The notes below the pieces were generated by a model, which was given only the letters and a program-made list of their open reading frames with translations, did no database searches and was not told the DNA's origin. Positions 5,144 to 53,145 of a stretch of 54,882 bases of DNA are shown in pieces. The DNA is from an uncultured Clostridia bacterium (GTDB lineage Bacteria; Bacillota; Clostridia; Oscillospirales; Acutalibacteraceae): the NCBI GenBank assembly GCA_944376655.1, contig CALWDJ010000013.1, forward strand, positions 1 through 54,882. The letters are read 5' to 3'. Numbering within the stretch: position 1 is the first letter of the stretch; every line of letters begins with the position of its first letter. The translations under genes were made by a program, and so were the position numbers.

Positions 5144-5246
5144 GCTTCTTCTCCTTCCGTTTGCCAAATCCGTAAAAATAAATTGCCGAATAATACCGCA
5201 GTGCATTTTTACGGATTTGAAATTTCCTAAACTTTAAAAGATTTGA

Positions 5247-5270
5247 GGCGGGGCAAAATATTGCCCCGCC
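5247..5270 (-). terminator. Intercistronic hairpin between bmp and nupO
   Basis: GGCGGGGCAA with partner TTGCCCCGCC, an almost uninterrupted stem. Only a weak T-rich stretch follows on the minus strand (TCAAATCTTTT), so it probably terminates partially or protects the bmp message. This is common after binding-protein genes, which are needed in excess over the membrane parts. Confidence 0.6.
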
Positions 5271-5291
5271 CGGATTTATCAGAGCCGTTTA

Positions 5292-37464: not shown

Positions 37465-38571
37465 ATGAAAAAATACATTGCACTTGTCTGCGCCCTCGCG
37501 GTAGCACTCTCTGTACTTCTTACCGGCTGCGGCTACGAATACAAGGATCTTGAGCTGCGCGCCGAGTACGACAAAAGCCTTGAAGGCACCACTCTTACGG
37601 TATACAACTGGGGCGAATACATCTCCCGCGGTGAGGACGACACGGTCGACGTAAACAAGGAATTTGAAAAATACACCGGTATAAAAGTTGATTATCTTAC
37701 CTTTGATAGCAACGAAATCATGTATTCACAGTTAGCCGGCGGCGGAATCAATTACGATATCATAATACCCTCCGACTATATGATTGAGCGTCTTATAAAG
37801 GAAGATATGCTCCAGACTATCGACACCTCAAAAATCTCAAACTACGACCTTATAGCAGACGAATACAAAAAGCTGTTTTTTGATCCCGAGGATCAATACA
37901 GCGTGCCCTACAATGTGGGACTTGTCGGAATTATTTACAACGAAAAGCTGACCGGAAGTGATATAGAGCACTCATGGAAGGTTCTGTGGGACGAGAAATA
38001 CAAGGATATGGCGCTCAACTTCAACAATCCGCGCGATGCCTTTATGACAGCCCAAATGATTTTAGGACAGGACGTGAACACGCTTAATAAAGCCGACTGG
38101 GACGCCGCTGCCGATCTGCTTAAAGAGGGCAAGGCAAATCTTCAGTCATATGTAATGGACGAGATATACGGAAAAATGGAGACCGGAGAGGCTTCCGTTG
38201 CCCCCTATTACGCCGGCGACTATCTTACAATGTACGACACCAATGAGGACCTGCGTTTCTTCTATCCGGAAGAGGGAACAAATATATTTGTCGACTCGAT
38301 CTGCATACCGAAAAACGCCAAAAACTACGAAGCGGCGCTTATGTATATCAACTTCCTGCTTGAGCCTGACATAGCCACCGCGAATGCCGAATACATCGGC
38401 TACGCCTCGCCCAACACGGCGGTTATAAACAACGAGGATTACTGCTACTATCAGAACGAGATTCTTTATCCCGACGAGGCTGATCTTCCGAAAGTACAAT
38501 ATTATCATGACATTGACGAGGAAATCCGCACATATTACGAAACCCTCTGGAGCGAGGTAAAGCTCTACTGA
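37465..38571 (+). CDS. potD: Spermidine/putrescine-binding lipoprotein PotD
   Basis: A 368-residue lipoprotein: signal MKKYIALVCALAVALSVLL, lipobox LTGC (Cys22), then the PotD fold with LTVYNWGEYIS, YDIIIPSDYMIERLIKEDML, VPYNVGLVGIIYN and FFYPEEGTNIFVDSICIPKNAK. The acidic/aromatic residues around these motifs line the polyamine pocket in the family. Last gene of the operon, followed by a strong terminator. Whether spermidine or putrescine is preferred cannot be told. Confidence 0.93.
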   Translation: MKKYIALVCALAVALSVLLTGCGYEYKDLELRAEYDKSLEGTTLTVYNWGEYISRGEDDTVDVNKEFEKYTGIKVDYLTFDSNEIMYSQLAGGGINYDIIIPSDYMIERLIKEDMLQTIDTSKISNYDLIADEYKKLFFDPEDQYSVPYNVGLVGIIYNEKLTGSDIEHSWKVLWDEKYKDMALNFNNPRDAFMTAQMILGQDVNTLNKADWDAAADLLKEGKANLQSYVMDEIYGKMETGEASVAPYYAGDYLTMYDTNEDLRFFYPEEGTNIFVDSICIPKNAKNYEAALMYINFLLEPDIATANAEYIGYASPNTAVINNEDYCYYQNEILYPDEADLPKVQYYHDIDEEIRTYYETLWSEVKLY

Positions 38572-38623
38572 TAAATGAAATATAGCGGTAAATACATCGA
38601 CTGCACACGGCACAAACCGATGC

Positions 38624-38660
38624 AAAAATCCCATACCTTTTTGAGGTATGGGATTTTTTT
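38624..38660. terminator. Bidirectional terminator between potD and lacZ
   Basis: AAAAATCCCATACC with partner GGTATGGGATTTTT, seven-base loop. A and T runs on both sides let it end both converging transcripts. Confidence 0.9.
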
Positions 38661-38661
38661 A

Positions 38662-41505
<2,844 letters not shown>

Positions 41506-41519
41506 CTATATAAACAATA

Positions 41520-41564
41520 CAGTACGGAAAAGTTATTATAAATCCCATATCCTTTCCCGTACTG
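41520..41564 (-). promoter_or_regulatory. Leader hairpin of lacZ
   Basis: CAGTACGGGAAAG pairs with CTTTTCCGTACTG (13 bp with one wobble) across a ~19-nt loop, in the untranslated leader. No T-run follows; it may protect the mRNA or bind a regulator. Confidence 0.55.
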
Positions 41565-41581
41565 CATAATCTAACAAATCA

Positions 41582-41610
41582 AATATACTTTATAGTATTG
41601 GGTTTGTCAA
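41582..41610 (-). promoter_or_regulatory. lacZ promoter
   Basis: -35 TTGACA, 17-nt spacer, -10 TATATT on the minus strand. Confidence 0.85.
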
Positions 41611-41635
41611 TATTTTTTTGTATGTTTTAGTTGCT

Positions 41636-41673
41636 CAAAATGTAGAAAAAGCCGTGATAATTTCTACATTTTG
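41636..41673. promoter_or_regulatory. Operator-like palindrome upstream of the lacZ promoter
   Basis: CAAAATGTAGAAA and TTTCTACATTTTG are perfect 13-bp arms separated by 12 nt, about 26 nt upstream of the -35 box. It also lies 30 nt after the peptidase stop, so a hairpin end for that operon is an alternative, but it is AT rich and lacks a T-run. Confidence 0.5.
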
Positions 41674-41702
41674 ATATGTTTAAAAATCGCAATAAAAATG
41701 TA

Positions 41703-42179
41703 TTACGTTTTTCTGCTTTTTTGCGCTAAAATAAAGCGTTTGATTTTTCCGAGGAACGGACGAAGTTTAAATTTCCATATATATCTTAAAGGATAGCTTA
41801 CCCGCATAAAAAAGACATATGTTTTGTACTTGCGGCTTTTTTCGCAATCGTAATACTTCCCATCACGGTAAAACGCTTTAAGGACGCCGATAATATCGCC
41901 GTCCTTGACATCGTATTCTTTTGTGTAAAGGTTGTCACCTCGTATTATATAGCCGTCATTCGTGACTTTTAATATACGGTGCAGAACTAATTTATCCCGT
42001 CCGGTTCTTTTATAAAGCGGAACGTCATTTTTTTTAAGTTTGCCGTCCACTCGTTTTATTACGACAATATCTCGATGCTGTCGCAGCATAGGCTGCATGC
42101 TTATTCCGACTGTTAAAGAGCAAACTTCCTGATTTTGTTCGAGTGCCTTCTCAATCTCATCAATTCCGAGATATTGCAT
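41703..42179 (-). CDS. S24/S26-family peptidase (signal-peptidase-like)
   Basis: A 158-residue protein with the serine-peptidase box VGISMQPML (Ser27) and a second box LVLHRIL in which His67 stands where bacterial signal peptidases have Lys. A Ser-His pair is the arrangement of ER/SipW-type enzymes. Then GDNLYTKEYDVKDGDIIG forms the last conserved box. There is no N-terminal membrane helix; the C-terminus is basic and aromatic (YPLRYIWKFKLRPFLGK) and may be membrane-associated. Its start overlaps the pqqD-like stop, so it belongs to the peptide operon and may remove the leader. Last gene of the set. Confidence 0.78.
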   Translation of the reverse strand: MQYLGIDEIEKALEQNQEVCSLTVGISMQPMLRQHRDIVVIKRVDGKLKKNDVPLYKRTGRDKLVLHRILKVTNDGYIIRGDNLYTKEYDVKDGDIIGVLKAFYRDGKYYDCEKSRKYKTYVFFMRVSYPLRYIWKFKLRPFLGKIKRFILAQKSRKT

Positions 42180-42445
42180 CAGATAAGCACGTCCGCTTCT
42201 TTTAGTTTATCGGTAAATTCCTTAACAGTTTCACGCACTTCCTGCTCGGTCACGTCCTCGTAATCCTTTAACATCGCCGCCACTATCTCGTCTTCAGTAA
42301 CGTCGTTTTTAAGCATATTGAAGATGTAAGCACCAGTGCCATTCATTTTAATAAAACCCCCGAATTTTTCGAGATCTTCGCCGACCGCTACCGCAACAAT
42401 TTTATCGGCTACTTCATTTGTTACAAAGGTGTATTTCAGTTTCAT
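42179..42445 (-). CDS. PqqD-like peptide-binding protein
   Basis: An 88-residue PqqD-family protein (RiPP recognition element): FVTNEVADKIVAVAVGEDLEKFGGFIKMNGTGAYIFNMLKND, then a helical half DEIVAAMLKDYEDVTEQEVRETVKEF. PqqD-like proteins bind the leader of precursor peptides and present them to radical SAM enzymes. The ATG at 42445 has GGAG seven bases upstream. Its first 32 nt overlap the end of the kinase-like gene, and its last base pairs overlap the peptidase start. Confidence 0.85.
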   Translation of the reverse strand: MKLKYTFVTNEVADKIVAVAVGEDLEKFGGFIKMNGTGAYIFNMLKNDVTEDEIVAAMLKDYEDVTEQEVRETVKEFTDKLKEADVLI

Positions 42446-43166
42446 TTTCTTTCTCCACTTCAAAAATTTTATTGTATGCCGTCTGCGCAGCGTTAATATC
42501 CATATTGCATTTTATTCTCCATAATTTGCAGCAGGAAATAAGTCTGTCAATAAGTTTCAATGTATTTAAAGCCGCATTCGGGTCTTTAGGCATATAAACC
42601 TGATTGAAAAGAAGGTCTGCTGCTTCCGCCTTTGACATCTCTACACAGGAATTGTTTTCCGCACGCTCTATAAAACATATATGTTTGAGCGGCGTTCTCA
42701 TGTTGCAACCTAAATGCTCCTTGCCGTTCCACGGTGTACCGTAAGCATAAGGTGTTTCCGGCTCATCATCAAAAAAGCGGACAATCGGTTTATCGCCGTT
42801 TACTATTTTAAGCCTGTCCCCTATCAGCTTCTGCCACAAGAGCATATGTGTGGTTTTTCCGGTGCCGCTGTGCGCCGCTAGCGCAATTCCCGTTCCGTCA
42901 ACATCAAAAACCGCCGAATGAAGCACAAAAGCATTATGTAACGGCAGCCATTCGGCTATTTTACGATGAATTGCCGAAGAAAAAAAACCTCCCCGCTCGA
43001 ATTTTGCAAGTTTTTTCTCAATTTTAACGTCATTCTTGGAAATGAATACAGACAATTCAGGGGCGTCTGAAAAACTCACACCATAATCTGATGTATCACC
43101 ATTTTGATTCCATTCATGCTTTATTTCCAATAAATAATCTGCTATTTTAATATAAAATTTATTCAT
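42414..43166 (-). CDS. HPr-kinase-like protein of a peptide-modification operon
   Basis: A 250-residue protein with the HprK-type P-loop HSGTGKTTH (99-107) preceded by AFVLHSAVFDVDGTGIAL and followed by IVNGDKPIVRFF, NGKEHLGCN and CFIERAENNS. This is the short HPrK-like family seen in RiPP clusters (a homologue phosphorylates the lasso peptide paeninodin), not the catabolite-control HPr kinase, which is longer and has an N-terminal domain. It overlaps the maturase gene by 8 nt and the PqqD gene by 32 nt. Phosphorylation of a Ser or Thr in the peptide is a plausible role but unproven. Confidence 0.75.
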   Translation of the reverse strand: MNKFYIKIADYLLEIKHEWNQNGDTSDYGVSFSDAPELSVFISKNDVKIEKKLAKFERGGFFSSAIHRKIAEWLPLHNAFVLHSAVFDVDGTGIALAAHSGTGKTTHMLLWQKLIGDRLKIVNGDKPIVRFFDDEPETPYAYGTPWNGKEHLGCNMRTPLKHICFIERAENNSCVEMSKAEAADLLFNQVYMPKDPNAALNTLKLIDRLISCCKLWRIKCNMDINAAQTAYNKIFEVEKENETEIHLCNK

Positions 43167-44511
43167 TGCCTTTTTTATTCATATACTCTTTATAAGAGCC
43201 CATCATACCTCTTCTAATATCTTCTAATCTGTTAATTTGTTCATATTCAAAACATTTGTGTTTGGCGATAGGGCATTTTTCTAATATTATACAAGTTGGA
43301 TAATATGCGCATTTCTTGCACTTTTCATATGGTTTACAATATTTACTCCAATCGCTCCTCTTCGTTGAATTATCATATATTGTACCAAAAGTTTCATCTT
43401 CAACAAAATGCTCGCAATAACCTAATTTACCGTCCGGCAAAATCATAACCCAAGTTTTATTATCAGCCTGGCACGCATAACACTTAAATTTATTAAACAT
43501 CATAGATCTGTGCTTAATGCTAGTTTTATCCAAATATTTGCATAAAGCAACATATTTTTGAGTAATAGCTTTGCGTTCTTCATCGGTTCGAGAGGTTTTT
43601 TTATATCCCACGCCTTCATAAATCGGTTGAGCGTAGATAGTTAATTTTTTAAATACAGAAAATTTATTATTCAAAAAATCAGTTAATTCAATAAGCTCAT
43701 CAGCATTATGGCTGTCCATATTAATTCTTATTTGAACAGCTACATTTTTATTAAGCAAATACTCTATATTATTGATCACACGTTGAAAAGGATTAGGATC
43801 ACTATGAATATAATTTTTAATATTATTGTATGTTTCCTGCAAACCATCTAATGTAATTTGTATCCATTTCAACTTCCATAAAGAAGTTGCTTTGGTTATT
43901 AGTTCATCATTAAAAAGATAAGCATTTGAAACCATTGTGGAATAGAAATTTATATTATTATCTTTTAGCGTTTCGCAGATTATATCTATTGCTTGTATAT
44001 TACATAACGGTTCGCCGCCAAACCAATTAAGCCTGACAGTTTTTCCTTTACTTTGCTTTATTATATATTTAGCAACATCAAAAGCAATTTGTTGATTCAT
44101 TGATTTTACCTTAGTTCCTGCTTCGTAACAATAAAAACAACGAGCATTGCACGCTGTTGTAGGTAAAATTGTAAAATTACAAATTGTATTTTCTTTGTTG
44201 ATAGTTCTTACAGTTGCAAGAAGTTGATCTGCAAGTAACATTTCATTGTAATTTTGAGGAACCAAAAACCATTTTTTTATTAAATTTTTGATTAATTCCT
44301 TAGGTTGCGTAAAATTGCTATTTTTTAAATTATTATATTCGTTTTCAGAAATTAAAATAAGTTCTTTTGTTAAATTGTTATAAAGTAAAATACCCTGTTC
44401 TGTGTCAGAATTTATACAATAATTGATAAATCTATATTCTTGCATATGGTTATAATTTTGCTCACCTAATATAGCAGAAATAACCTCTGAAGGTTTATTT
44501 ATTTGTAGCAT
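43159..44511 (-). CDS. Radical SAM/SPASM peptide maturase
   Basis: A 450-residue radical SAM enzyme. An N-terminal region of ~110 residues (YINNCIN-like, LYNNLTKELILISENEYNNL) resembles the leader-handling domains of peptide maturases. The SAM cluster motif is CNARCFYC (Cys121, 125, 128), followed by LNWFGGEPL, STMVSNAYL and WIQITLDGL. The C-terminal third is a Cys-rich SPASM-type domain (CQADNKTWVMILPDGKLGYC, CKKCAYYPTCIILEKCP) that would hold extra Fe-S clusters. Such enzymes form thioether or C-C links in RiPPs. The gene is visibly more AT rich than the flanking housekeeping genes, suggesting transfer. A precursor gene lies 56 nt upstream. Confidence 0.88.
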   Translation of the reverse strand: MLQINKPSEVISAILGEQNYNHMQEYRFINYCINSDTEQGILLYNNLTKELILISENEYNNLKNSNFTQPKELIKNLIKKWFLVPQNYNEMLLADQLLATVRTINKENTICNFTILPTTACNARCFYCYEAGTKVKSMNQQIAFDVAKYIIKQSKGKTVRLNWFGGEPLCNIQAIDIICETLKDNNINFYSTMVSNAYLFNDELITKATSLWKLKWIQITLDGLQETYNNIKNYIHSDPNPFQRVINNIEYLLNKNVAVQIRINMDSHNADELIELTDFLNNKFSVFKKLTIYAQPIYEGVGYKKTSRTDEERKAITQKYVALCKYLDKTSIKHRSMMFNKFKCYACQADNKTWVMILPDGKLGYCEHFVEDETFGTIYDNSTKRSDWSKYCKPYEKCKKCAYYPTCIILEKCPIAKHKCFEYEQINRLEDIRRGMMGSYKEYMNKKGNE

Positions 44512-44531
44512 GAATTTGAAATCTCACTTTC

Positions 44532-44569
44532 TAAAAAAAGCAGCTTGCAACGCAAGCTGCTTTTTTTTT
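44532..44569 (-). terminator. Terminator between precursor and maturase genes
   Basis: AGCAGCTTGC with partner GCAAGCTGCT, triloop, and T-runs on both sides. It follows the precursor stop directly and precedes the maturase start by ~20 nt, so it would give many precursor transcripts and few maturase transcripts. Confidence 0.85.
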
Positions 44570-44687
44570 ACTCTAAAATTGGTTCATCACATCCAGGAGT
44601 CAATTCAGGTGTATATTCAGCACCACATGGAGAAGTTGTAACAACATTTTCCAAATTTAATTTTATAATTTCAACATATGCCTTCAT
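44568..44687 (-). CDS. Candidate RiPP precursor peptide, 39 residues
   Basis: ATG 44687 has GGAGGTGAAG seven bases upstream, one of the best ribosome sites in the window. The peptide starts MKAYVEIIKLNLENVV, a leader-like half, and ends with a core-like half containing TTSPCGAEY (Cys21) and TPELTPGCDEPILE (Cys33). The two Cys are 12 apart, with Thr, Ser, Pro and acidic residues around them. It sits between the secreted protein gene (42 nt) and the radical SAM maturase (56 nt), with a terminator right after its stop. Size, position and strand fit a precursor. It is too short to be picked up by 60-codon ORF calls. The modification type (sulfur-to-carbon thioether, phosphorylation) is not determined. 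Confidence 0.75.
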   Translation of the reverse strand: MKAYVEIIKLNLENVVTTSPCGAEYTPELTPGCDEPILE

Positions 44688-44729
44688 TATTAAACTTCAC
44701 CTCCAACGAAGAATAATGCATATACTCAA

Positions 44730-46346
44730 TTAAAATGCTGATTGAGCAGAATCAGAATAATTAATAATTGCATTGACTAAATCTTCAACACTTGGATCTG
44801 TTAACACAACAGCTGCCAATACACTTTCAATACTATAAGTAGCCGTATCACTTACAGCTGAATCGCCATTGTAAACTGTAACAGAAACCAATTCGCGCAT
44901 ATTAGGTGCAATTACATCTACATTGAAGAGCAATCTACCTTTTTCATCTACAGAATAATCAGTTATTGCTTCGCTAATAGGCGCACCGTTAAAGCTCGTA
45001 TATGAAACCATTAGTTTAACATCAGTAAGCTGATCAGGATTAGAATAATATGTTGTGACCGCTTTATGACTAAAAGAAATAGCATCACCCAAGCTAATAC
45101 TCGGAGTAGCTAAAGCGACTTTTTGTTTTTCTACGAAGTCACTAGATACCGGTATATAATTGCTCTCATTTTTTTCAACAGACGGTTTAGTCGTTGTGAC
45201 ATACTGCGCATAATCCCCAACAAGTTCAGCATCAGCCAAAAGCGAAGTATTATAGTTAAAATAGCTCTGTGCCTCTGCGCCCATTTTTAATAGGTTTGCT
45301 GCAACACGTTTCATAGCTTCTGCCGAGGTAGAGGAAGTTACTACTGACATAGCACTGTCTTTTACAGAAAAATCTCTTACCATACCAGAAACCCACTGAC
45401 CATCGCGCTTTGTGTAAAAGACAGAAGTAAATGTATCAGTAAAATGGATGCTCTTTACGCCTATAATCCATCTGTAATAACTTCCATCATTTTCCGCATC
45501 AGCAACATCAAAAACCATTGTTTCATCTGCTGCACCATTGCCATATTTATGTGTTACAACTGCAATCCCATCCTCCGAGTTCGCATAGTTAGTAATATTT
45601 GCTCTAAGTATTAATTGAGTAGTAGAAGTGCAACCTATACTGGGAGTAGCCAGTAAACTCGACATTAAATATGTAACATCTTCGGTAATCTGCTCACCGC
45701 AGTCGGCACACTCAAAAGTTATTGTGCCATTTACCTCTTCTGTCGCAGGAACAGCTGAAACAAACTCGAGATTTTCATGTGTGCAGACCGGAGCGTCTGC
45801 TACTACAGTAATCTTGCCGTCAATAAGCTGAGGATACACCCATTTCTCATTTAAGTCGGCAAACTGGCTCTCGTCAAAGATTATCGAATATACAGTACCG
45901 GCAGATGCATTGGTAGGGATTGTAACGCTGATTGTAACATTAAAAGAAGATGTTTCAAGAGGAGGAGTGTCTCCGTACTGCGGGAAGTTGATTATATCAA
46001 CCAATCTTACGGTCTTTGTTCCGTCTTCATTTGACAGAATATTATATTCGCCGCCTGTCTCGTCATTGACAAGGACAAGATCTCTATTATTCAAGTTATC
46101 ACGTACTTTTCCGATTTCAAGACCCGCAGCAAATTTAATATCCACTGACTGACCGCAGATTTTGGTGAGATCGGCACCCGTTACATTTACTCCAACTGTT
46201 CCACCTTTTTCGCCTTCGGCGCTTACTACTGTATAAACAGGAGTATCGCCCTCCGCAGCGCTTACGGAAAGGCAGCCGATAAGTGCGGTTAAGCATATGG
46301 CAGCCGAAACCATAATTGCCAGAGATTTTTTGAAAATCTTTTTCAT
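44730..46346 (-). CDS. Secreted cohesin-like surface protein
   Basis: A 538-residue exported protein: signal MKKIFKKSLAIMVSAAICL, probably cut after VSA (~30), though LIGC at 22-25 also fits a lipobox. Residues ~37-180 resemble a cohesin/dockerin-binding-type beta sandwich (GGTVGVNVTGADL, VDIKFAAGLEIGKV, ASAGTVYSIIFD, GKITVV). A Cys-rich hinge (CTHENLEF, CADCGEQI) follows, then two repeats of a Ruminococcaceae-type domain with EAMKRVAANLLKMGAEAQSYFNYN and a similar end LVNAIINYSDSAQSAF. Its stop lies 42 nt before the precursor gene on the same strand. Whether it is part of the peptide system or just upstream is open. Confidence 0.65.
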   Translation of the reverse strand: MKKIFKKSLAIMVSAAICLTALIGCLSVSAAEGDTPVYTVVSAEGEKGGTVGVNVTGADLTKICGQSVDIKFAAGLEIGKVRDNLNNRDLVLVNDETGGEYNILSNEDGTKTVRLVDIINFPQYGDTPPLETSSFNVTISVTIPTNASAGTVYSIIFDESQFADLNEKWVYPQLIDGKITVVADAPVCTHENLEFVSAVPATEEVNGTITFECADCGEQITEDVTYLMSSLLATPSIGCTSTTQLILRANITNYANSEDGIAVVTHKYGNGAADETMVFDVADAENDGSYYRWIIGVKSIHFTDTFTSVFYTKRDGQWVSGMVRDFSVKDSAMSVVTSSTSAEAMKRVAANLLKMGAEAQSYFNYNTSLLADAELVGDYAQYVTTTKPSVEKNESNYIPVSSDFVEKQKVALATPSISLGDAISFSHKAVTTYYSNPDQLTDVKLMVSYTSFNGAPISEAITDYSVDEKGRLLFNVDVIAPNMRELVSVTVYNGDSAVSDTATYSIESVLAAVVLTDPSVEDLVNAIINYSDSAQSAF

Positions 46347-46349
46347 ACT

Positions 46350-46434
46350 TTTTTTCTCCTAACCGGCTTTCGCCAAATATTCGTCTCCCCCGAGACCGGA
46401 CTGTCCAGACGAAGCTAAACCGCTTCCTATGACT
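46350..46434 (-). other. Structured untranslated leader of the secreted protein gene
   Basis: Minus-strand leader able to form GAAGC-GGTTTA-GCTTC, an outer stem TTCGTCT/AGACGAA with a competing GTCTC/GAGAC, and GGC-GAAA-GCC just before the ribosome site TAGGAG. The two alternative stems share bases, as in switching leaders. I cannot assign it to a known riboswitch class. Confidence 0.4.
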
Positions 46435-46440
46435 AATGCA

Positions 46441-46469
46441 ATTATAACATCTCAAAGAATAAAATTCAA
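46441..46469 (-). promoter_or_regulatory. Proximal promoter of the peptide operon
   Basis: -35 TTGAAT, 17-nt spacer, -10 TATAAT on the minus strand, about 95 nt before the secreted protein start. Confidence 0.7.
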
Positions 46470-46602
46470 GTGATATTTATGCAAAACAATGTCGCAGTCA
46501 ATAAAAAAAATAAAGTTTTTTTTGTGTAAATAGTCAAACATCACAACATTACAGTGTTTTTTTTAATAATCAGCAGAAAAAAGTATTTTTTATATCATTA
46601 TT

Positions 46603-46630
46603 ATTATAATACTTTTTTTCTGTATGTCAA
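46603..46630 (-). promoter_or_regulatory. Distal promoter of the peptide operon
   Basis: TTGACA, 16-nt spacer, TATAAT on the minus strand. It lies inside a 14-bp inverted repeat (CAGAAAAAAGTATT at 46574, AATACTTTTTTTCTG ending 46622). The surrounding 46490-46770 is extremely AT rich with many A and T tracts and holds no gene. Confidence 0.65.
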
Positions 46631-46769
46631 CCTTTTTTTTGCCAATATACCGGTATTTATTAAAAAATATTATTTCATTTATTGCAAAGTCCGATTTTTG
46701 GGACTTTAACTCTGATATTATTACTATTGTGAAATGACGGCAGTCAAGTTTTTAATTTTAAAAAAAATC

Positions 46770-46798
46770 TTGACAATTTCCGCATTTAACTATATAAT
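46770..46798 (+). promoter_or_regulatory. Perfect promoter of the small membrane protein
   Basis: TTGACA, 17-nt spacer, TATAAT, the strongest possible match. The LexA-type palindrome at 46806-46819 covers the start point. Confidence 0.9.
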
Positions 46799-46805
46799 AT
46801 GTATG

Positions 46806-46819
46806 CGAACATTTGTTCG
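46806..46819. promoter_or_regulatory. LexA-type operator (SOS box)
   Basis: CGAACATTTGTTCG: perfect CGAACA/TGTTCG arms with a two-base centre, matching the Gram-positive SOS box CGAAC-N4-GTTCG. It overlaps the transcription start of the 59-residue protein, the ideal place for repression. Confidence 0.7.
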
Positions 46820-46832
46820 GGAGGTTGAAATT

Positions 46833-47012
46833 ATGAGTTTTCCTATGATTTTAAGAACCGTATTTGAAATTGCATTATTTGCCGCGATTATCTGGGGCTT
46901 TTTTCACGAAGACCGTCTTGCTGCGTTTGAAAGACGTGTTTTCTGCTCTTTAAGAAGAAAAAAACTAAAAGTCATAAAGCCTGCTGTTTCTCATTTTGAA
47001 ACCGTAAAATGA
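46833..47012 (+). CDS. Small single-pass membrane protein, probably SOS-regulated
   Basis: A 59-residue protein from ATG 46833 (GGGAGG 8 nt upstream). One transmembrane helix near residues 4-24 (MILRTVFEIALFAAIIWGFF), then a basic cytoplasmic tail (FERRVFCSLRRKKLKVIK). Longer in-frame starts lie upstream, within the operator. Known SOS-induced division inhibitors of Firmicutes (YneA, SidA-like) are also small single-pass proteins, so a similar role is a fair guess, but there is no LysM domain and no sequence match that I recognise. It faces away from the peptide operon and ends at a hairpin. Confidence 0.7.
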   Translation: MSFPMILRTVFEIALFAAIIWGFFHEDRLAAFERRVFCSLRRKKLKVIKPAVSHFETVK

Positions 47013-47032
47013 TATATATTTTCTAATTTCCG

Positions 47033-47066
47033 GTTGCCGCAAAAAACACTTGATTTTTGCGGCAAC
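47033..47066 (+). terminator. Hairpin after the small membrane protein
   Basis: GTTGCCGCAAAAA pairs perfectly with TTTTTGCGGCAAC. The T's lie inside the 3' arm. The right half also holds the -35 box of tRNA-Ser. Confidence 0.65.
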
Positions 47067-47078
47067 TGATGTTATAAT
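47050..47078 (+). promoter_or_regulatory. tRNA-Ser promoter
   Basis: -35 TTGATT, 17-nt spacer, -10 TATAAT, 41 nt before the tRNA. It overlaps the preceding hairpin. Confidence 0.75.
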
Positions 47079-47118
47079 GGCTATTGCCGCCGCTGAAGTG
47101 AGCGGCTTATTACGATAC

Positions 47119-47211
47119 GGAGATGTCGCCTAGTCCGGTCGAGGGCGCACGATTGGAAATCGTGTAACCATTAACAGTGGTTCGAGAGTTCGAATCTCTC
47201 CATCTCCGCCA
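47119..47211 (+). tRNA. tRNA-Ser (anticodon GGA)
   Basis: A 93-nt class II tRNA: acceptor GGAGATG/CATCTCC, anticodon stem CACGA/TCGTG with loop TTGGAAA (anticodon GGA), a long variable arm (AACCATTAACAGTGGTT), T arm GAGAGTTCGAATCTCTC, discriminator G and encoded CCA. Own promoter upstream and terminator 6 nt downstream. Confidence 0.97.
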
Positions 47212-47250
47212 GGCAGAGCCCGGAGCCAAACGCGCTCCAGGCTTTTTTTG
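47211..47250 (+). terminator. tRNA-Ser terminator, copy 1
   Basis: GCCCGGAGC with partner GCTCCAGGC, then seven Ts. The unit begins AGGCAGAGCCCGGAGCCAAA and recurs exactly 100 bp later. Confidence 0.85.
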
Positions 47251-47310
47251 TTTTATTTTAAAATCGATGCCCGCGTTTACAGCCGCCATCTTTTTTCAGT
47301 TTCTCTTTGC

Positions 47311-47350
47311 AGGCAGGGCCCGGAGCCAAACACGCTCCGGGTCTTTTTTG
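47311..47350 (+). terminator. tRNA-Ser terminator, copy 2
   Basis: AGGCAGGGCCCGGAGCCAAA, CACGCTCCGGGTC and six Ts: a second, nearly identical 40-bp unit, with a slightly better hairpin (GGCCCGGAGC with partner GCTCCGGGTC). The stretch 47251-47310 between the copies shows no tRNA or gene, and 47351-47492 shows none either. Confidence 0.75.
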
Positions 47351-47492
47351 TCTAAGAAACACGTGACAGCTTCCATTTTTTCTTATTAAAACCGATAGCC
47401 ATGACACGCGGCTTATCCGCTTTATGAATATTAGAAATAAAAATATTTCTTCCGAGACGTTGAGTTTTTTTATATCAAAATTCAATAATTGT

Positions 47493-47526
47493 AAAAAAAT
47501 CCTGCCTGTTTCGGCAGGATTTTTTA
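47493..47526 (-). terminator. Terminator of cpsD
   Basis: AAAAAATCCTGCC with partner GGCAGGATTTTTT, five-base loop; the T-run on the minus strand ends the cpsC-cpsD transcript. Confidence 0.88.
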
Positions 47527-47532
47527 CAACCG

Positions 47533-48285
47533 TTATTTAATTCTTTTCCCCGACGGCGTGTATTCGTATCTTCTGTAATATTTTTTATAGTATTTAGTAC
47601 GTTTGGATTCTATATCATTGAGTATCGCGCCGAGAATTTTACAGCCGCTCTTTATAAGCTGATCCTTAATCTCTGCAACCTCTTTAACGGTTATTTTTCC
47701 CGGAGTAACTACGATTGCCGCACCGTCACAACGAGCAGCGATAACAGCAGCATCAATAACCGTTCCGAGCGGCGGTGAATCGATCAACACATAATTATAT
47801 ACGCTTCTGGCGCTTTCAATAAGCTGCTTGAACCTTTCCCCACCGAGAAGCTCAACAGGATTCGGAGGAAACCGTCCGCTGAATATCGCGTCAAAATACG
47901 GATCCTGTGTATTGTAAAGCACCTTATCAATGCCGGCTTGTCCTGACAAAAGCTCTGAAAGACCGTAGAAATTCTGTGAAACCACATTACGTCTGAGTAA
48001 AACAGATTTTCGCATATCTGCGTCAATCAAAAGTGTTTTTTTGCCGGCTTCGGCAAGACTTTTGGCAAGCTCTGCGGATACTGTACTTTTTCCCTCGTTT
48101 TCACGTGAACTTGTAAGCACAATAACCTTGATATCCGCTCCGCAAAACATAATATTTGTACGTAGTGTTTTAAAATTCTCGTTTGTAAGATAATCATCAG
48201 AAGATGATGTGTTGAAATTAACTCTTCCGGCTGAAATTCCCTTATTGAATTGTATATCATACTGATTATTGTCGTGTTCGAACAT
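47533..48285 (-). CDS. CpsD/CapB-type tyrosine kinase
   Basis: A 250-residue BY-kinase. Walker A SSRENEGKST, Walker A' LLIDADMRKS, Walker B YVLIDSPPLG, and a C-terminal Tyr cluster (TKYYKKYYRRYEY) that is autophosphorylated in the family. With the CpsC-like membrane adaptor just upstream it controls polymer length in capsule or exopolysaccharide synthesis. Separated from cpsC by 50 nt. No glycosyltransferases, flippase or polymerase are nearby, so its target pathway lies elsewhere. Confidence 0.9.
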   Translation of the reverse strand: MFEHDNNQYDIQFNKGISAGRVNFNTSSSDDYLTNENFKTLRTNIMFCGADIKVIVLTSSRENEGKSTVSAELAKSLAEAGKKTLLIDADMRKSVLLRRNVVSQNFYGLSELLSGQAGIDKVLYNTQDPYFDAIFSGRFPPNPVELLGGERFKQLIESARSVYNYVLIDSPPLGTVIDAAVIAARCDGAAIVVTPGKITVKEVAEIKDQLIKSGCKILGAILNDIESKRTKYYKKYYRRYEYTPSGKRIK

Positions 48286-48335
48286 AATTCTGCCTTTCTG
48301 CGATATAGCCTTTAACCGTAATTAACATTAAACGA

Positions 48336-49037
48336 CTATTTGGATTTCGTCTTTTTCTTATTCTGATTATAAGGTATATTTCCGAGAACGCTTATTTCAA
48401 GATATTTTTCAATATCCTCGGGTCCGTTGATTTTATCGTTAAGGAAGCAAATCAGAACCACTGTTCCGGCAAACACTACAAACGCGACAATAATAGCTTT
48501 CATAATATTTCCGGAAGTATTCGACGAAGACGGCGCAGACGCGATATCACCCTTACGTATTATAGTTACCTGATCTATTCCGAGCAGCTCCACTATTTTC
48601 TCCTGTGACACTTCGCAAATTGAATCAACTATTCTTTTAGAGTCAACAGCGTCAGGAGTTCTGACCGTAATTTCAAGGAATCTGGTGTTTTCCGGATTTA
48701 CAACCGTAACGGCGCTTTTCAGCTGCGCGTATGAATATTTATTGTCAAGCTCGTCCGAGACCTCGTCAAGCACCGCTTTGTCTACAATAAGATCTTCATA
48801 ATCCTTTGTAAGGTATATTGAAACCGAAAGATCGCTTGAGCTTATATTTTCCGACTGCTTGTTCATTATATAGAGTTTACCGGTTGAATCATACAAAGGT
48901 GTCGCTATAAAATTCGAATAAATAACCGCTGCAAGCACACACACTATGAGCAGTATCATAAGAATATACCACCGCGTAACTACCGTATACATCAGATCTC
49001 TTAAATTAAGTTTATTATACTCATTTTTATTTTCCAC
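48336..49037 (-). CDS. CpsC/YveK-type Wzz membrane adaptor
   Basis: A protein of about 233 residues with the Wzz/YveK layout: TM1 WYILMILLIVCVLAAVIYSNFI near residue 25, an extracytoplasmic helical domain (TPLYDSTGKLYIMNK ... EITVRTPDAVDSKRIVDSICEV), and TM2 IMKAIIVAFVVFAGTVVLICFLNDKI followed by the kinase-activating tail. GTG 49037 with GGGG upstream is preferred; a frame to 49106 would start upstream of the promoter's -10, so it is rejected, and ATG 49079 is possible. It activates the adjacent CpsD. Confidence 0.82.
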   Translation of the reverse strand: MENKNEYNKLNLRDLMYTVVTRWYILMILLIVCVLAAVIYSNFIATPLYDSTGKLYIMNKQSENISSSDLSVSIYLTKDYEDLIVDKAVLDEVSDELDNKYSYAQLKSAVTVVNPENTRFLEITVRTPDAVDSKRIVDSICEVSQEKIVELLGIDQVTIIRKGDIASAPSSSNTSGNIMKAIIVAFVVFAGTVVLICFLNDKINGPEDIEKYLEISVLGNIPYNQNKKKTKSK

Positions 49038-49096
49038 GAATAAATTACCCCAGTAAATAATTTGTGTTTTAAATGCCATTTTTATACAGCAATGAT

Positions 49097-49125
49097 ATTC
49101 TATCATATTCCGGCATATAATTCAA
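49097..49125 (-). promoter_or_regulatory. Promoter of cpsC-cpsD
   Basis: -35 TTGAAT, 17-nt spacer, -10 TAGAAT on the minus strand. Its position rules out the longest cpsC start. Confidence 0.65.
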
Positions 49126-49155
49126 GTGTGTAAAACCTGAAATACCATAATTTTC

Positions 49156-50130
49156 TTATAAAAGTTTTATGCTTATTTCACCTGACGAAAGAAATTCCTG
49201 CCTTTTATCCGGATAAGCAACGCGCAGACGGTAATTTTCGTCTATTTCAAGTGCTGTCGCCGGCTTTGAGCCGTCGGCGGATATTACGGTTATTTCCCTG
49301 CCCGGAACTATACAGCGTTTCCTGTACGCGTCAAGACAATCATGCGAACCGATTTTTTCATAATAACCGAAAAATTTTTCAAGCACCAGTGCCGCGAGCC
49401 GCGCGCGCTGCCCGCTCTTTCTCTTGCTGAAAATCGCTCCGGCTATGCCGGAAATCTCATCGGGAAATCCACCGTCAGGAACATACGCGTTGAGCCCTAT
49501 CCCGAGTATCGCGTAATCAAGCGTGCCGCTCTCGACATTTATCGCCGCCTCTGTAAGTATTCCCGATATTTTTCTGTTTTCCATAAGAACATCGTTAACC
49601 CATTTTATTCCGGTTTTTCTGCCTGTAAGCTCTTCTGCCGCCTCGGCTACGGCAACCGCCGCCGCCGTGGTTATCTGTACGGCTTTCTCACAGGAAAGAG
49701 ACGGGCGAAGCAGAATACTCATATAAACTCCGCTGTCGGAAGGAGAATAAAACCTTCTCGCGAACCTGCCCCTGCCCGCCGTCTGCTCCGACGCGGCAAG
49801 AACCGTTCCCTCTTCCGCGCCTTTTGAGGCGATTTCCTTCAATACCGCGTTTGTGGAGGTAACGGTGTTCCTTACTTCAATTTTGAGCTTTCCGTGAAGC
49901 TCTGTGAGATTTTTTTCTATCTCCTGTGCGGTAAGCACATCGCTGTCCGGCCTTATGCGGTAGCCGCGGTTTGTGACCGCTTCTATACCGTAGCCGTCAT
50001 GTCTTAGAGACTCTACCGCCTTCCACACGGCGCTGCGGCTGACTCCGAGTATTTCCGCCGCGTTTTCTCCGGAAATATAATCCTCTTTGCTGAGCAGCGG
50101 AAGCAGACGTTCCTTTACGCTTCTGGTCAT
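49156..50130 (-). CDS. birA: Bifunctional biotin ligase / biotin repressor
   Basis: A 324-residue class II biotin protein ligase: N-terminal winged helix (EDYISGENAAEILGVSRSAVWKAVESLR), biotin-binding part SEQTAGRGRFARRFYSP (the GRGRxxR loop), KWVNDVLMENRKISGILTEA, and a C-terminal SH3-like cap. It attaches biotin to carboxylase carrier proteins and represses biotin genes when charged. It follows deoD by 20 nt. No biotin genes are in the window. Confidence 0.93.
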   Translation of the reverse strand: MTRSVKERLLPLLSKEDYISGENAAEILGVSRSAVWKAVESLRHDGYGIEAVTNRGYRIRPDSDVLTAQEIEKNLTELHGKLKIEVRNTVTSTNAVLKEIASKGAEEGTVLAASEQTAGRGRFARRFYSPSDSGVYMSILLRPSLSCEKAVQITTAAAVAVAEAAEELTGRKTGIKWVNDVLMENRKISGILTEAAINVESGTLDYAILGIGLNAYVPDGGFPDEISGIAGAIFSKRKSGQRARLAALVLEKFFGYYEKIGSHDCLDAYRKRCIVPGREITVISADGSKPATALEIDENYRLRVAYPDKRQEFLSSGEISIKLL

Positions 50131-50150
50131 TTTCAGACTCCCTCCGGCGT

Positions 50151-50873
50151 TTAAAGCGACACCGCTGTCTCAAGCGCCAGCTTTATCATATCGGTAAATG
50201 AGTTCTGCCGCTCCGCTGCGGTCGTCTCCTCTCCTGTCACAAGCGAATCCGAAACCGTGCACACCGCGAGCGCCTTTTTGCCTGTTCTCGCCGCGTTGGC
50301 GTAAAGCGCCGCCGCCTCCATCTCAACCGCGAGCACTCCCATTTTCGACCACAGCGCAGCCGGCGTGCGGTCGGGAGAGACGCTTTCGGTATAAAACCTA
50401 TCGCTTGAAAGTATATTACCGACGTGATAAGGAAGCCCTAATCTTCTTGCGGCTGAGACCGCCTTTTCGAGCAGTCCGAAGTCGGCTATCGGCGAAAAAT
50501 CGCCCGGCAGCTCATACTGCTTAATAAAAGCCGAATCGGTGCAGGCGGCCTGACCTATAACGATATCGCGCAGCTTCACATCAGCCCTGTACGAGCCGGC
50601 GGAGCCTATTCTTATTATATTATCGACTCCGAAAAAGCTGAAAAGCTCATATGAGTAAATACCCATTGACGGCATACCCATTCCGCTCGCCATTACAGAA
50701 ACTTTTCTGCCTTCGTAAATACCGGTATATCCCTTTACGCCGCGGACATCGTTGACAAGCCTTGCGTCCTTCAAAAAATTTTCGGCTATCATCTGTGAAC
50801 GGTAAGGGTCTCCCGGCATAAGCACGGTTTCGGCGAAATCTCCTTTTTCCGCGTTGATATGAGGCGTTGACAT
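50151..50873 (-). CDS. deoD: Purine-nucleoside phosphorylase, DeoD type
   Basis: A 240-residue hexameric-type PNP: MSTPHINAEKGDFAETVLMPGDPYRS (phosphate loop), GYTGIYEGRKVSVMASGMGMPSMGIYSYEL, GSAGSYR, ILSSDRFYTE and catalytic VSDSLVTGEETTAAERQNSF. The Asp in VSDS protonates the base. It releases ribose-1-phosphate and purine bases, which the xpt operon enzymes can salvage. Immediately upstream of birA. Confidence 0.95.
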   Translation of the reverse strand: MSTPHINAEKGDFAETVLMPGDPYRSQMIAENFLKDARLVNDVRGVKGYTGIYEGRKVSVMASGMGMPSMGIYSYELFSFFGVDNIIRIGSAGSYRADVKLRDIVIGQAACTDSAFIKQYELPGDFSPIADFGLLEKAVSAARRLGLPYHVGNILSSDRFYTESVSPDRTPAALWSKMGVLAVEMEAAALYANAARTGKKALAVCTVSDSLVTGEETTAAERQNSFTDMIKLALETAVSL

Positions 50874-50959
50874 AAATGCTCCGTCCTTTCCTTTTTTATC
50901 ACCCTGATATTTTTTTCATATACTGTAATATCCATTGAAATCATAAAGGAGTATATGCT

Positions 50960-51364
50960 ATGGAACACAGCTTTCCCTGCCGGATAAACGGCGAAAAAGA
51001 ACTGGAATATTATGAGGAGTACTTAAACAGAAACGGCGATGCTGCTGACACTTCCGAAGAAAAAACTATGAAAATGACTGTCAGCCCGCCTTCGGGCTAT
51101 ATCGACAAGGCGCTTCCGCCCCCGCCCTGCAAGGATGACCGGCTATGCTGCTACCTTAAAACGGCTGTCGGCAAGCTCGTAAGAGTTGAATCGGTTATAG
51201 GCGGCTGTCTTGAAAGCCGTGTAGGCACGCTGCTTAAAGTCGGCGAGGACTTTATCGTAATAAAGCTGTGGCAGAGCTGCAGCACTATGATATGCGAAAA
51301 AGCGTCTGTCAGGTATATAACCGTGATACACGACAACGACGTCAATAAAATAGGACTTTATTGA
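50960..51364 (+). CDS. Hypothetical protein with an LSm-like C-terminal domain
   Basis: A 134-residue protein. The first ~60 residues look disordered (EKELEYYEEYLNRNGDAADTSEEKT, PSGYIDKALPPPPCKDD). The rest resembles small beta barrels: LKTAVGKLVRVESVIGGCLESRVGTLLKVGEDFIVIKL followed by SVRYITVIHD, a pattern seen in small Sm-like or coat-related proteins of Firmicutes. I do not recognise a named family. Good ribosome site (AAAGGAG). The dispersed repeat follows on the opposite strand. Confidence 0.65.
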   Translation: MEHSFPCRINGEKELEYYEEYLNRNGDAADTSEEKTMKMTVSPPSGYIDKALPPPPCKDDRLCCYLKTAVGKLVRVESVIGGCLESRVGTLLKVGEDFIVIKLWQSCSTMICEKASVRYITVIHDNDVNKIGLY

Positions 51365-51383
51365 TTACCGTTTGTTTTCAGCC

Positions 51384-51480
51384 GCGCCTGCCGCCGTAAA
51401 AACAAAATGCGGCTTTTCGCCGCGGAAAAATCGAATTTGAGATTTATCGACAGACTCAGGAGCGTGCTCAGGCACGCTCC
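51384..51480 (-). repeat. Structured dispersed repeat, copy 2
   Basis: Read on the minus strand: hairpin GGAGCGTGC-CTGA-GCACGCTCC (51459-51480), then AGTCTGTCGATAAATCTCAA, ATTCGATTTTT, a GCGGC/GCCGC hairpin, ATTTTGTTTTT and CGGCGGCAGG. It matches copy 1 in order and in most bases, while its first hairpin has a different sequence in the same place. It lies right after sufB on the same strand, so it may serve as its terminator. CTGTCG and CGGCAG can still pair through a wobble. Confidence 0.7.
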
Positions 51481-51490
51481 CTTAATTTGT

Positions 51491-52408
51491 TTACTTAAGA
51501 AATCCGTTGATAATCTGCTCTTCAGCCTGCTTCTCGGTAAGACCCAAAGTCATCAGCTTTATAATCTGGTCCCCGGCGATTTTGCCTATCGCCGCCTCGT
51601 GTATAAGCGAAGCGTCAATATTATTTGCGGTTATTTCGGGTATTGCGCTTACCCTGCCGTTGTCCATTATTATAGCGTCGCATTCCGAATGTCCGCTGCA
51701 TATATTATTACCGTTTATTTCAGAAACAAACTTCTGATACGAATTATCTTTCGCAACCGAGCGTGAAATAAGGTTCGTGCTCGAATTTTCGCCGTCAAGG
51801 TCAATTTTGAACTCGGTTTCGGCGGTCTGCTTTCCGTGGGTCATCAGCTTTTCCTTTACTATAAGGGTCGCACCGTCTGCGAGTCTGCCGGTCGTTACAC
51901 GCTTTGTGGAATCGACCCCTTTTATCTGGGTGGTTTCCATCTCCATATAACCGCCCTCGGCGATATTGATGATAGTTGTCGGGTTCATAATGTTCTCCCC
52001 GTTGCCGTCGCCCTCGCCGTAATGCTTTTCTATATATCTGATTTTAGCGTTTTTGCCTACGAAAAAGGTGTGTATCCCGTCGTGCTCCGCCTTTTCGCCG
52101 CCGCAGTTGTGTATGCCGCAGCCGGCTATTATGGTGACATCGGCGCCGTCGCCGATTATAAAATCATTGTAAACAAGGTCGGTAAGTCCCGTTTCGCTTA
52201 TGATTACAGGTATATGAACCGTCTCGTTTTCAGCACCGGGCTTGATTATTATATCTATCCCCGGATTATCCGTTTTTGAACGTATTTCCACATTTTCGGT
52301 TATATGCCTGTCCGCGAGCTGACCGTTGGCGCGTATATTGTAGGCGCCTTCGGTTTTCCCGTCCATATCGGCAATTATCTTCAAAAGCTCAAGCTCTGTA
52401 CTGTTCAT
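51491..52408 (-). CDS. sufB: SufB/SufD-like Fe-S scaffold protein (minimal SUF)
   Basis: A 305-residue beta-helix protein of the SufBD family: PVIISETGLTDLVYNDFIIGDGADVTIIAGCGIHNCG, IRYIEKHYGEGDG, MNPTTIINIAEGGYMEMET, and the C-terminal NICSGHSECDAIIMDNGRVSAIPEITANNIDASLIHEAAIGKI. It is much shorter than E. coli SufB (495). The sequence keeps Cys and an ASLIHEA-type Glu near the SufC contact. With only SufC beside it, this is the two-gene SMS (SUF-like minimal system) arrangement described in anaerobes and archaea. It overlaps sufC by ATGA. Confidence 0.85.
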   Translation of the reverse strand: MNSTELELLKIIADMDGKTEGAYNIRANGQLADRHITENVEIRSKTDNPGIDIIIKPGAENETVHIPVIISETGLTDLVYNDFIIGDGADVTIIAGCGIHNCGGEKAEHDGIHTFFVGKNAKIRYIEKHYGEGDGNGENIMNPTTIINIAEGGYMEMETTQIKGVDSTKRVTTGRLADGATLIVKEKLMTHGKQTAETEFKIDLDGENSSTNLISRSVAKDNSYQKFVSEINGNNICSGHSECDAIIMDNGRVSAIPEITANNIDASLIHEAAIGKIAGDQIIKLMTLGLTEKQAEEQIINGFLK

Positions 52409-53145
52409 TGATTTTCCTCCCTCGCGGTGTCCGCAAGCACCCTGCAGCCGCTGTCCACCGTGCAGAGCAGCTGCGGCAGTATTTCTTCCTTTGTCCCCTC
52501 AGAGGAAACCGTACCGCCGCCGAGGACTATTATCCTGTCCGCGATATTAAGGATGCGCTCCTGATGCGAAATGATTATGATTGTTCCTCCCGATTCCTTA
52601 CGCATTTTCTCAAAAACACGTATCAGGTTGCCGAAGCTCCACAGGTCAATACCGGCTTCTGGCTCATCGAATATCGACACCTTTGTAGAACGGGCGAGCA
52701 CAGAGGCTATCTCTATTCTTTTAAGCTCGCCGCCCGAAAGAGACGAGTTTATCTCCCGGTTTATATAGTCGCGCGCGCAGAGCCCGACCTGCGACAGATA
52801 GTCGCAGGCTTCATTTATGCCCAGCTTTTTCCCCGCGGCAAGACCCAGCATATCGTAAACCGTGAGTCCCTTGAAATGCACCGGCTGCTGAAAAGCGAAG
52901 CTGATGCCGCGGTTTGCCCTCTCGGTGACCGACATATGCGTTATATCCTCGCCGTCAAGAAGTATCTGACCCGACACGGGCGCGATAATTCCGGCGATTA
53001 TTTTTGCCAGTGTTGATTTGCCGCCTCCGTTCGGACCGGTTATGACAACAAAGCTGTTGTCTATTTTAAGATTTATATTTTTAAGAATTTCCTTTTCTCC
53101 GCTTTCGTTTTCAGCATTGAAGGAAATATTTTTGAGCTCTAACAT
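52405..53145 (-). CDS. sufC: SufC-like Fe-S assembly ATPase
   Basis: A 246-residue ABC ATPase: Walker A GPNGGGKS, Q-loop ISFAFQQPVHFKGLTVYDML, signature LSGGELKRIE, Walker B VSIFDEPEAGID, H-loop ISHQERIL. The ELKR signature and EPEAGIDLWSF are typical of SufC rather than of transport ATPases. Partner of the SufB-like protein. No sufS, sufU or sufD gene is next to it. Confidence 0.88.
   Translation of the reverse strand: MLELKNISFNAENESGEKEILKNINLKIDNSFVVITGPNGGGKSTLAKIIAGIIAPVSGQILLDGEDITHMSVTERANRGISFAFQQPVHFKGLTVYDMLGLAAGKKLGINEACDYLSQVGLCARDYINREINSSLSGGELKRIEIASVLARSTKVSIFDEPEAGIDLWSFGNLIRVFEKMRKESGGTIIIISHQERILNIADRIIVLGGGTVSSEGTKEEILPQLLCTVDSGCRVLADTAREENQ

Follow-up and report, generated by a model that had tools for sequence, protein, structure and literature searches.

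Does the short peptide encoded by a minus-strand operon of an uncultured Clostridia bacterium (Acutalibacteraceae; assembly GCA_944376655.1, 95.9% complete) work together with the secreted protein whose gene stands directly in front of it, or do the two only share a transcript? The operon lies on contig CALWDJ010000013.1 (contig 13 of the genome); the stretch that we analysed, called the window, covers its positions 1 to 54,882, and all features are on the minus strand unless stated. The genes follow one another in one direction: the secreted protein (44730–46346, 538 amino acids (aa), with a start that resembles a signal peptide by eye, probably the first gene of the operon), a precursor peptide (44568–44687), a radical S-adenosylmethionine (SAM)/SPASM maturase (43159–44511, 450 aa), an HPr-kinase-like kinase (42414–43166, 250 aa), a PqqD-type leader-binding protein (42179–42442, 87 aa) and a signal-peptidase-I-like protease (41703–42179, 158 aa). 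The genes of the last four overlap (kinase and radical SAM genes by 8 nt, PqqD and kinase genes by 29 nt). A first-pass annotation had proposed a five-gene operon at 41703–44687, and all of its genes were found there. We lean, with modest confidence, towards a polymorphic operon for a ribosomally synthesised and post-translationally modified peptide (RiPP) that is tied to the surface protein.

The best evidence for such a tie comes from the same locus of a sister species (L093; labels of this form denote the loci of relatives). DNA identity between the two is 85.8% on one side (45796–52803, so that the secreted-protein gene from 45796 on can still be aligned) and 87.6% on the other (37901–42456), and the proteins encoded outside the intervening block remain similar (PqqD 95%, protease 80%, beta-galactosidase 91% identity). 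Within the block (42457–45795) the sole DNA match is at 43807–44186 (67% identity, ~390 columns within 3.3 kb), and protein identity is 53% for the precursor (32 aligned residues), 41% for the radical SAM enzyme and 45% for the kinase. The kinase and radical SAM genes also stand in a different order, the kinase gene first in L093 and the radical SAM gene first in the window. Judged from these alignments, the C-terminal domain of the secreted protein, the precursor, the radical SAM enzyme and the kinase have changed together, while PqqD, the protease and the flanks have stayed. It is the joint replacement of the domain with the peptide genes that argues most strongly for a functional link between peptide and domain. 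Neither this cassette nor the secreted-protein gene in front of the precursor had been noticed in the first-pass annotation. Fast evolution in place, with no cassette replaced, could also be considered, since the four differing genes remain recognisable homologues and the identity of the secreted protein is already down to 52–68% before the break; the swapped gene order and the fall of DNA identity from 86–88% to that single match speak against this explanation, which we regard as quite unlikely.

The precursor (MKAYVEIIKLNLENVVTTSPCGAEYTPELTPGCDEPILE, 39 aa) has a leader that is homologous in relatives, and a ribosome-binding site, GGAGG, can be read from the sequence at 44700–44704, 12 nt before the ATG. 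The putative leader spans residues 1–19 (44631–44687) and ends in T-T-S; we infer cleavage after S19, which is invariant in 20 aligned precursors (20 of the 69 on our list). The predicted core (residues 20–39, 44571–44630) contains Cys21 and Cys33 and ends in the tail CDEPILE. Among relatives, a common leader (E-I/V-I/V-x-F...D-V-I-T-T/A-S) precedes a variable core. Searched on the gene strand, a leader pattern that was written after such precursors had been seen, and that demands no Cys in the core, finds 19 small open reading frames (ORFs) with a ribosome-binding site in 16 of the relatives' 79 loci, compared with 1/79 loci on the opposite strand and 0/79 in reversed sequence. With a relaxed pattern, precursors were found in 35 of the 121 loci searched, hence not everywhere.

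Our precursor list contains 69 peptides from 61 loci, none of them identical. Repeat contigs (L010 = L139, L124 = L009) and regular-expression matches resembling other frames or unrelated sequences (e.g. L245, L275 and L278) were omitted, and peptides missed by the first regular expression were added by hand; precursor-like peptides of L333, L342, L344 and L352 (with radical SAM gene and core Cys) and of L340 and L349 (with neither) are outside the counts. The last leader residue is Ser in 61/69 precursors by the regular-expression cut, which is misplaced in a few rows (e.g. L070, L137, L217) with no effect on the Cys calls. A core Cys is present in 55/58 precursors that lie no more than 7 kb from a radical SAM gene versus 1/11 of the others (Fisher 8.8e-9, uncorrected for relatedness), or, counted per locus, in 49/50 versus 1/11; of these 11, four (L046, L203, L213 and L217) come from stretches whose upstream end is less than 1 kb away and one (L214) from a contig of 4.4 kb, so that a radical SAM gene may lie past the end. 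The three Cys-less exceptions beside a radical SAM gene are two precursors of L201, a locus scored as radical SAM-bearing through a motif match on the opposite strand, and one of L100, where a second precursor does contain Cys.

Directly after the stop codon of the precursor, in the gap before the maturase gene, is a terminator-like hairpin (44533–44567; 16-bp stem, U-tract, dG -22.1, z -4.26), which a simple scan of the window did not list. By a loose rule, a hairpin follows 43/69 precursors (6/69 in mononucleotide-shuffled controls), which fits expression of precursor over enzymes. The proposal of a RiPP operon made in the first-pass annotation is thus borne out: the gene set recurs, the leader is shared and the core variable, hairpins follow the precursors, and core Cys tracks the radical SAM gene. 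On these sequence patterns, a RiPP whose core Cys undergo radical SAM modification is very likely. Precursors of another type (core C-L/A-TWSNQ-N/S-GV-A/S-C-H/Y-YG) are found beside kinase, PqqD and protease in L059, L070 and L233; the radical SAM enzymes of L059 and L070 belong to another lineage (22–28% identity over short stretches).

The C-terminal domain of the secreted protein (about 44733–45701) also stands upstream of relatives' precursors. AlphaFold2 modelled the last 323 residues with a predicted local distance difference test (pLDDT) score of 80.2, and in this model the C-terminal 300 aa form two immunoglobulin (Ig)-like sandwiches, each closed by helices, with ends like LLNYGAxAQxYF. 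No Pfam or NCBIfam family was found for the window's secreted protein or domain (one NCBIfam match at 0.063, below cut-off), and other members of the domain gave single weak Pfam or NCBIfam matches. A solved homologue was sought with Foldseek and rejected, as only generic tandem Ig- or fibronectin type III-like matches were returned (50 listed rows; template modelling (TM) scores at most 0.25 by query and 0.36 by target). The domain has one match in its own genome and occurs in 15/200 genomes of the family, three of which have 6, 8 and 11 copies. It was found upstream of precursor or enzyme genes in 22 loci (window, a repeat contig and contig-end fragments included), at the very C-terminus of proteins of up to 2881 aa. 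Where the first precursor is preceded by more than 700 bp of sequence (55 loci), a domain gene stands directly in front of it in 24 (window included), and domain genes also precede precursors where no radical SAM gene was seen (L202, L213, L214, L217 and L272).

Further links between peptides and surface proteins come from shared tails. In seven loci (L201, L272, L009, L148, L060, L136 and L142) a neighbouring protein ends in the precursor's own C-terminal sequence, and by eye all seven carriers have secreted, lipidated or membrane-anchored starts; in L201 the carrier is the secreted protein itself (DEGWSDWWTPEY against DKGWSDWWTPEF). In the gene-filtered set, tail sharing at a score of at least 28 was found in 7/69 cases, where mismatched loci give an expectation of 0.23; the match of L217, counted among these seven, is not at the protein end and is probably due to chance. 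A first test with all ORFs (score at least 26) gave 5/44 versus 1.1 expected, with L165 and L101 looking like chance; the tail of L142 is from this first test and is not among the matches listed in the gene-filtered one. These tails could also point to an anchoring or sorting system, in which the peptide is an adaptor that is matured or regulated by the RiPP-like enzymes and that docks the large secreted protein through a C-terminal tag shared with anchored stalks. The identical or nearly identical tails and the surface-type carriers are what such a system would leave; against it, no partner tail was found for the window or seen in most other loci, and in the radical SAM-type pairs L009, L136, L142 and L148 the core Cys is outside the shared tail. 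We consider it improbable. L340 and L349, where no radical SAM gene was seen, show an arrangement of their own: a small precursor-like ORF whose core lacks Cys is followed by a stalk protein that has a membrane anchor and ends in DPNKESMDGWSPWR or DPNKETMNGWTPWH, and this in turn by kinase, PqqD and protease.

Several observations weigh against a tie between the peptide operon and the surface protein. The replacement of the cassette is seen in one pair of sister species, and its border is not sharp (the secreted proteins are 92% identical in residues 1–40, 52–68% up to about residue 200 and 11–43% after that). No domain gene was recognised immediately in front of the precursor in 31 of the 55 loci, although L009, L143 and L203 among them hold a domain gene elsewhere in the locus. 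Nine domain places opened in the three multi-copy genomes had a precursor at none of them. A search for an anchored protein ending in the tail of the window's precursor led to two further sites in the genome, neither of which showed one. Kinase, PqqD, protease and radical SAM enzyme are each found without the others, and the precursor list was curated by hand. These points leave some room for an ordinary radical SAM RiPP (a bacteriocin-like or signalling thioether peptide), with the secreted protein as a co-transcribed neighbour and the cassette moved as a block by horizontal transfer with no functional pairing. In keeping with this, the maturase belongs to a broad group of SPASM maturases, and the domain was not found in Bacteroidales loci or in those of the tandem radical SAM group described below, so these maturases work without it. 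Such a neighbour would hardly be expected to show the domain at the extreme C-terminus of proteins of up to 2881 aa, upstream of the precursor even where no radical SAM gene is seen, or to have only its C-terminal part covered by the replaced block, not the entire gene; we find this explanation rather unlikely. On the sequence patterns described so far, we marginally favour a peptide that works with the domain of the secreted protein.

For the maturase, the first-pass annotation had described a CxxxCxxC radical SAM enzyme with a Cys-rich SPASM end, and in 25 sequences (window included) C121, C125 and C128 and seven further Cys (C347, C366, C398, C401, C407, C413 and C420) are indeed invariant. 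The window's enzyme matches PF04055 at 1.5e-15, and a profile of the family matches the solved protein 5wgg, which we take to be CteB, at 2e-16. No NCBIfam maturase family scores above its curated cut-off (best TIGR04463, 148.2 bits versus 525; the PapB model gives 80 bits against 340), so that the known families (TIGR04463, PapB, Clo7bot and others) were rejected. By analogy with the nearest maturases, thioether formation is probable, ahead of other chemistries. A second radical SAM match in the genome is weak (23% identity, contig 27), and the GC content is 0.28 in the radical SAM gene and 0.47 in that of beta-galactosidase. In a tree of the radical SAM enzymes, the window groups with L091 and L090 (100/99); the kinase and the secreted-protein domain are each present in 9 of the 10 members of the enclosing set (89/94, not starred, the window's composition being flagged as unusual). 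The close relative L090 has a second small radical SAM protein (4656–5435, PF04055 5.5e-18) between the precursor and the SPASM maturase. In the tandem radical SAM group (L095, L100, L103, L107, L120 and L140), the leader is of the type MKExYExPxxEIVxID..DIIFAS, and two or three maturases are accompanied by a nucleotidyltransferase-like gene; all of these loci but L140 also have an ABC transporter.

The assignment of the PqqD protein made in the first-pass annotation is secure (PF05402, 5.7e-14, 52.6 bits against a cut-off of 23.4). The Ser-His peptidase that it had named next to it also holds up: S27 and H67 are invariant in 26 sequences (window included), as are M28, P30, G81 and D82, and the profile matches signal peptidases weakly but consistently (signal peptidase I 4nv4, 2.8e-4; SEC11A 7p2p, 3.2e-4). 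TIGR02228 is matched at 2.9e-8, below its cut-off, and PF00717 by 4/26 members, the window's not among them. By eye, the N-terminus of the protease shows no hydrophobic stretch or membrane helix, for which reason leader removal would take place in the cytosol. Signal peptidases follow a small-residue rule at the cleavage site, and leaders ending mostly in Ser fit this rule. A precedent for such a step is the nickel superoxide dismutase maturation protease, a signal-peptidase-type enzyme that trims a leader in the cytosol; it differs in substrate, and its model TIGR02754 gives the window's protease 13.4 bits versus a cut-off of 63.25. From these sequence features, the protease probably removes the leader.

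Within the window's genus, the protease is found in 53/61 genomes (own included). The 40 genus loci that were opened contain PqqD in 38, the kinase in 18 and a radical SAM gene on the gene strand in 8 cases (contig ends cut some), which makes PqqD and protease the constant pair and the remainder optional. The first-pass annotation had held that its proposal would be weakened by genes occurring apart with no precursor-like ORF; the genes do occur apart (PqqD and protease without kinase in 19 of the 40 loci, some cut by contig ends), and precursor-like ORFs recur all the same. In six of 20 genus loci (L332, L334, L336, L337, L341 and L343) the PqqD-protease pair stands behind a large membrane protein of ~870 aa. 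No kinase, no radical SAM gene and no convincing precursor were seen close to it, and the precursors that the pair serves may be encoded at other sites of the genome.

The kinase has an intact P-loop (HSGTGKTT, residues 99–106), of which G101, G103, K104 and T106 are invariant in 34 sequences. Its AlphaFold2 model has a pLDDT of 93.3, and in a Foldseek search the 13 best rows were HprK/P (1kkl, 5e-7), followed by phosphoenolpyruvate (PEP) carboxykinases, with low query TM-scores (0.27–0.39 for HprK/P, up to 0.52 for PEP carboxykinase). The window's kinase has no Pfam match, the nearest NCBIfam model being ScmC (23 bits against a cut-off of 125), which 21 of the 34 kinase sequences match at E <= 0.001; no other kinase match was found in the genome. 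Sequence context makes it quite possible that the kinase acts on the precursor, and there is a reported precedent in an HPr kinase that modifies a lasso precursor at its C-terminal Ser (PMC7533575). With only slightly less weight, it could leave the peptide alone and act as a regulator or, for the PqqD-protease pair, as an accessory NTPase: kinase and radical SAM enzyme are found apart, PqqD and protease are present without the kinase in some loci, and S, T and Y are missing from 5/69 cores, although in all five of these the leader end retains a Ser and the lasso precedent favours a peptide substrate. Of the peptide both cross-linked and phosphorylated that the first-pass annotation had suggested, the HprK-like kinase stands, and the phosphorylation is a possibility.

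A scan of public genomes found 256 radical SAM relatives, of which the best 80, in 79 loci (mostly of metagenome-assembled genomes), were kept; their hosts are mostly gut and rumen Clostridia and Bacteroidales. A first contig scan with a single protein query had found no relative. In these best 79 loci the radical SAM gene is accompanied by the kinase in 36, by PqqD in 50 and by the protease in 26 cases, and all four enzyme genes are together in 24 (contig ends cut some), the recurrence that the first-pass annotation had proposed to look for. Kinase, PqqD and protease are together in 23/42 loci opened first and 32/56 opened later, and some relatives have a nucleotidyltransferase or an ABC gene in the locus. 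Locus L117, from an isolate of Faecalibacterium prausnitzii, has the radical SAM gene, the kinase and two precursors on a contig that stops short of any PqqD or protease gene. The distribution of the radical SAM enzyme is patchy (6/300 family genomes at E <= 1e-20, own included; 8/394 genomes of the order with the profile at 1e-50); the kinase is more widespread (126/394 genomes of the order).

Like the maturases of sactipeptides and ranthipeptides, the window's enzyme combines CxxxCxxC with Cys of the SPASM region, a short adjoining precursor with Cys and a separate PqqD protein; it differs in scoring far below the cut-offs and in the added kinase, signal-peptidase-like protease and secreted protein. 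Separate RiPP recognition element proteins co-occur with radical SAM enzymes, according to PMC7470986. An HPr-type kinase near a leader peptide is also known from lasso clusters: some clusters carry it (PMC4289311), and a survey of rumen lasso peptides lists HPr kinase in ~58%, PqqD in ~46% and nucleotidyltransferase in ~30% of the genomes analysed (PMC7533575). For the window a lasso peptide was rejected (no PF13471 leader peptidase found in the genome; asparagine-synthase matches, PF00733, only on contigs 18, 36, 38 and 40), the operon encoding a radical SAM enzyme and a signal-peptidase-like protease in their place. The SynChlorMet cassette likewise brings HprK-like, PqqD-like and radical SAM/SPASM proteins together; membership was rejected, as ScmC, ScmD and ScmE score 23/125, 12.7/100 and 49.4/400 bits. 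No relevant open-access paper was found for the NCBIfam accessions and the SynChlorMet cassette. The first-pass annotation had called the combination uncharacterised, and we agree to the extent that no title or opening of an abstract among the open-access papers listed, which included work on lasso peptides, sactipeptides and genome mining as well as reviews, described it, subscription papers being mostly outside the search; a description of the pairing of peptide and surface protein was not found in the open-access literature either.

We note the surroundings of the operon. It may start at the secreted-protein gene (46346), behind a promoter-like site (TTGACA-16-TATAAT, 46603–46630), which is supported by a 12/12 consensus match only; another 12/12 site is on the plus strand at 46770–46798, and such sites are not commoner in the window (28) than in shuffles (22.7, standard deviation 5.2). 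About 0.8 kb upstream of the first gene is a tRNA-Ser (gga) gene (47119–47211, plus strand), which stands between the secreted-protein gene and a Wzz gene; the latter lies at 47533–49106 together with the gene of a ParA-like ATPase, which is probably its capsule kinase.

Under the favoured reading, the hairpin would hold precursor transcripts above those of the maturase. PqqD would bind the leader (EIIKLN..ENVVTTS) and pass the precursor to the radical SAM enzyme, which would form a thioether between a neighbouring residue and Cys21, Cys33 or both. The kinase would phosphorylate a Ser or Thr (candidates T17, T18, S19, T26 and T30), the protease would cut in the cytosol behind the T-T-S end of the leader, and the mature peptide would leave by an exporter not encoded in the operon and act with or on the variable Ig-like domain, each allele recognising its own peptide. 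A more specific proposal, to which we give little credence at present, is kind-recognition or signalling: the modified peptide would be the diffusible half and the tandem Ig-like domain the surface half, both being exchanged between strains as one allelic cassette (with the radical SAM enzyme and the kinase) on a constant chassis (PqqD, protease and the start of the secreted protein), with anchored proteins displaying the peptide tail on the cell surface in some species. In the agr locus of staphylococci, the variable block comprises a peptide, a processing enzyme and the variable part of a receptor; the window's operon differs in that no sensor kinase is present and the variable partner is a secreted Ig-like domain.

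If the favoured reading is true, radical SAM RiPPs of gut and rumen bacteria that are outside the NCBIfam maturase families would be linked to a secreted-protein partner, and these peptides would gain a role that is not killing and that can be tested. The peptide would evolve jointly with its maturase, its kinase and the partner domain, the signal-peptidase-like protease would be the enzyme that removes the leader, and the allele pairs would allow direct tests of specificity.

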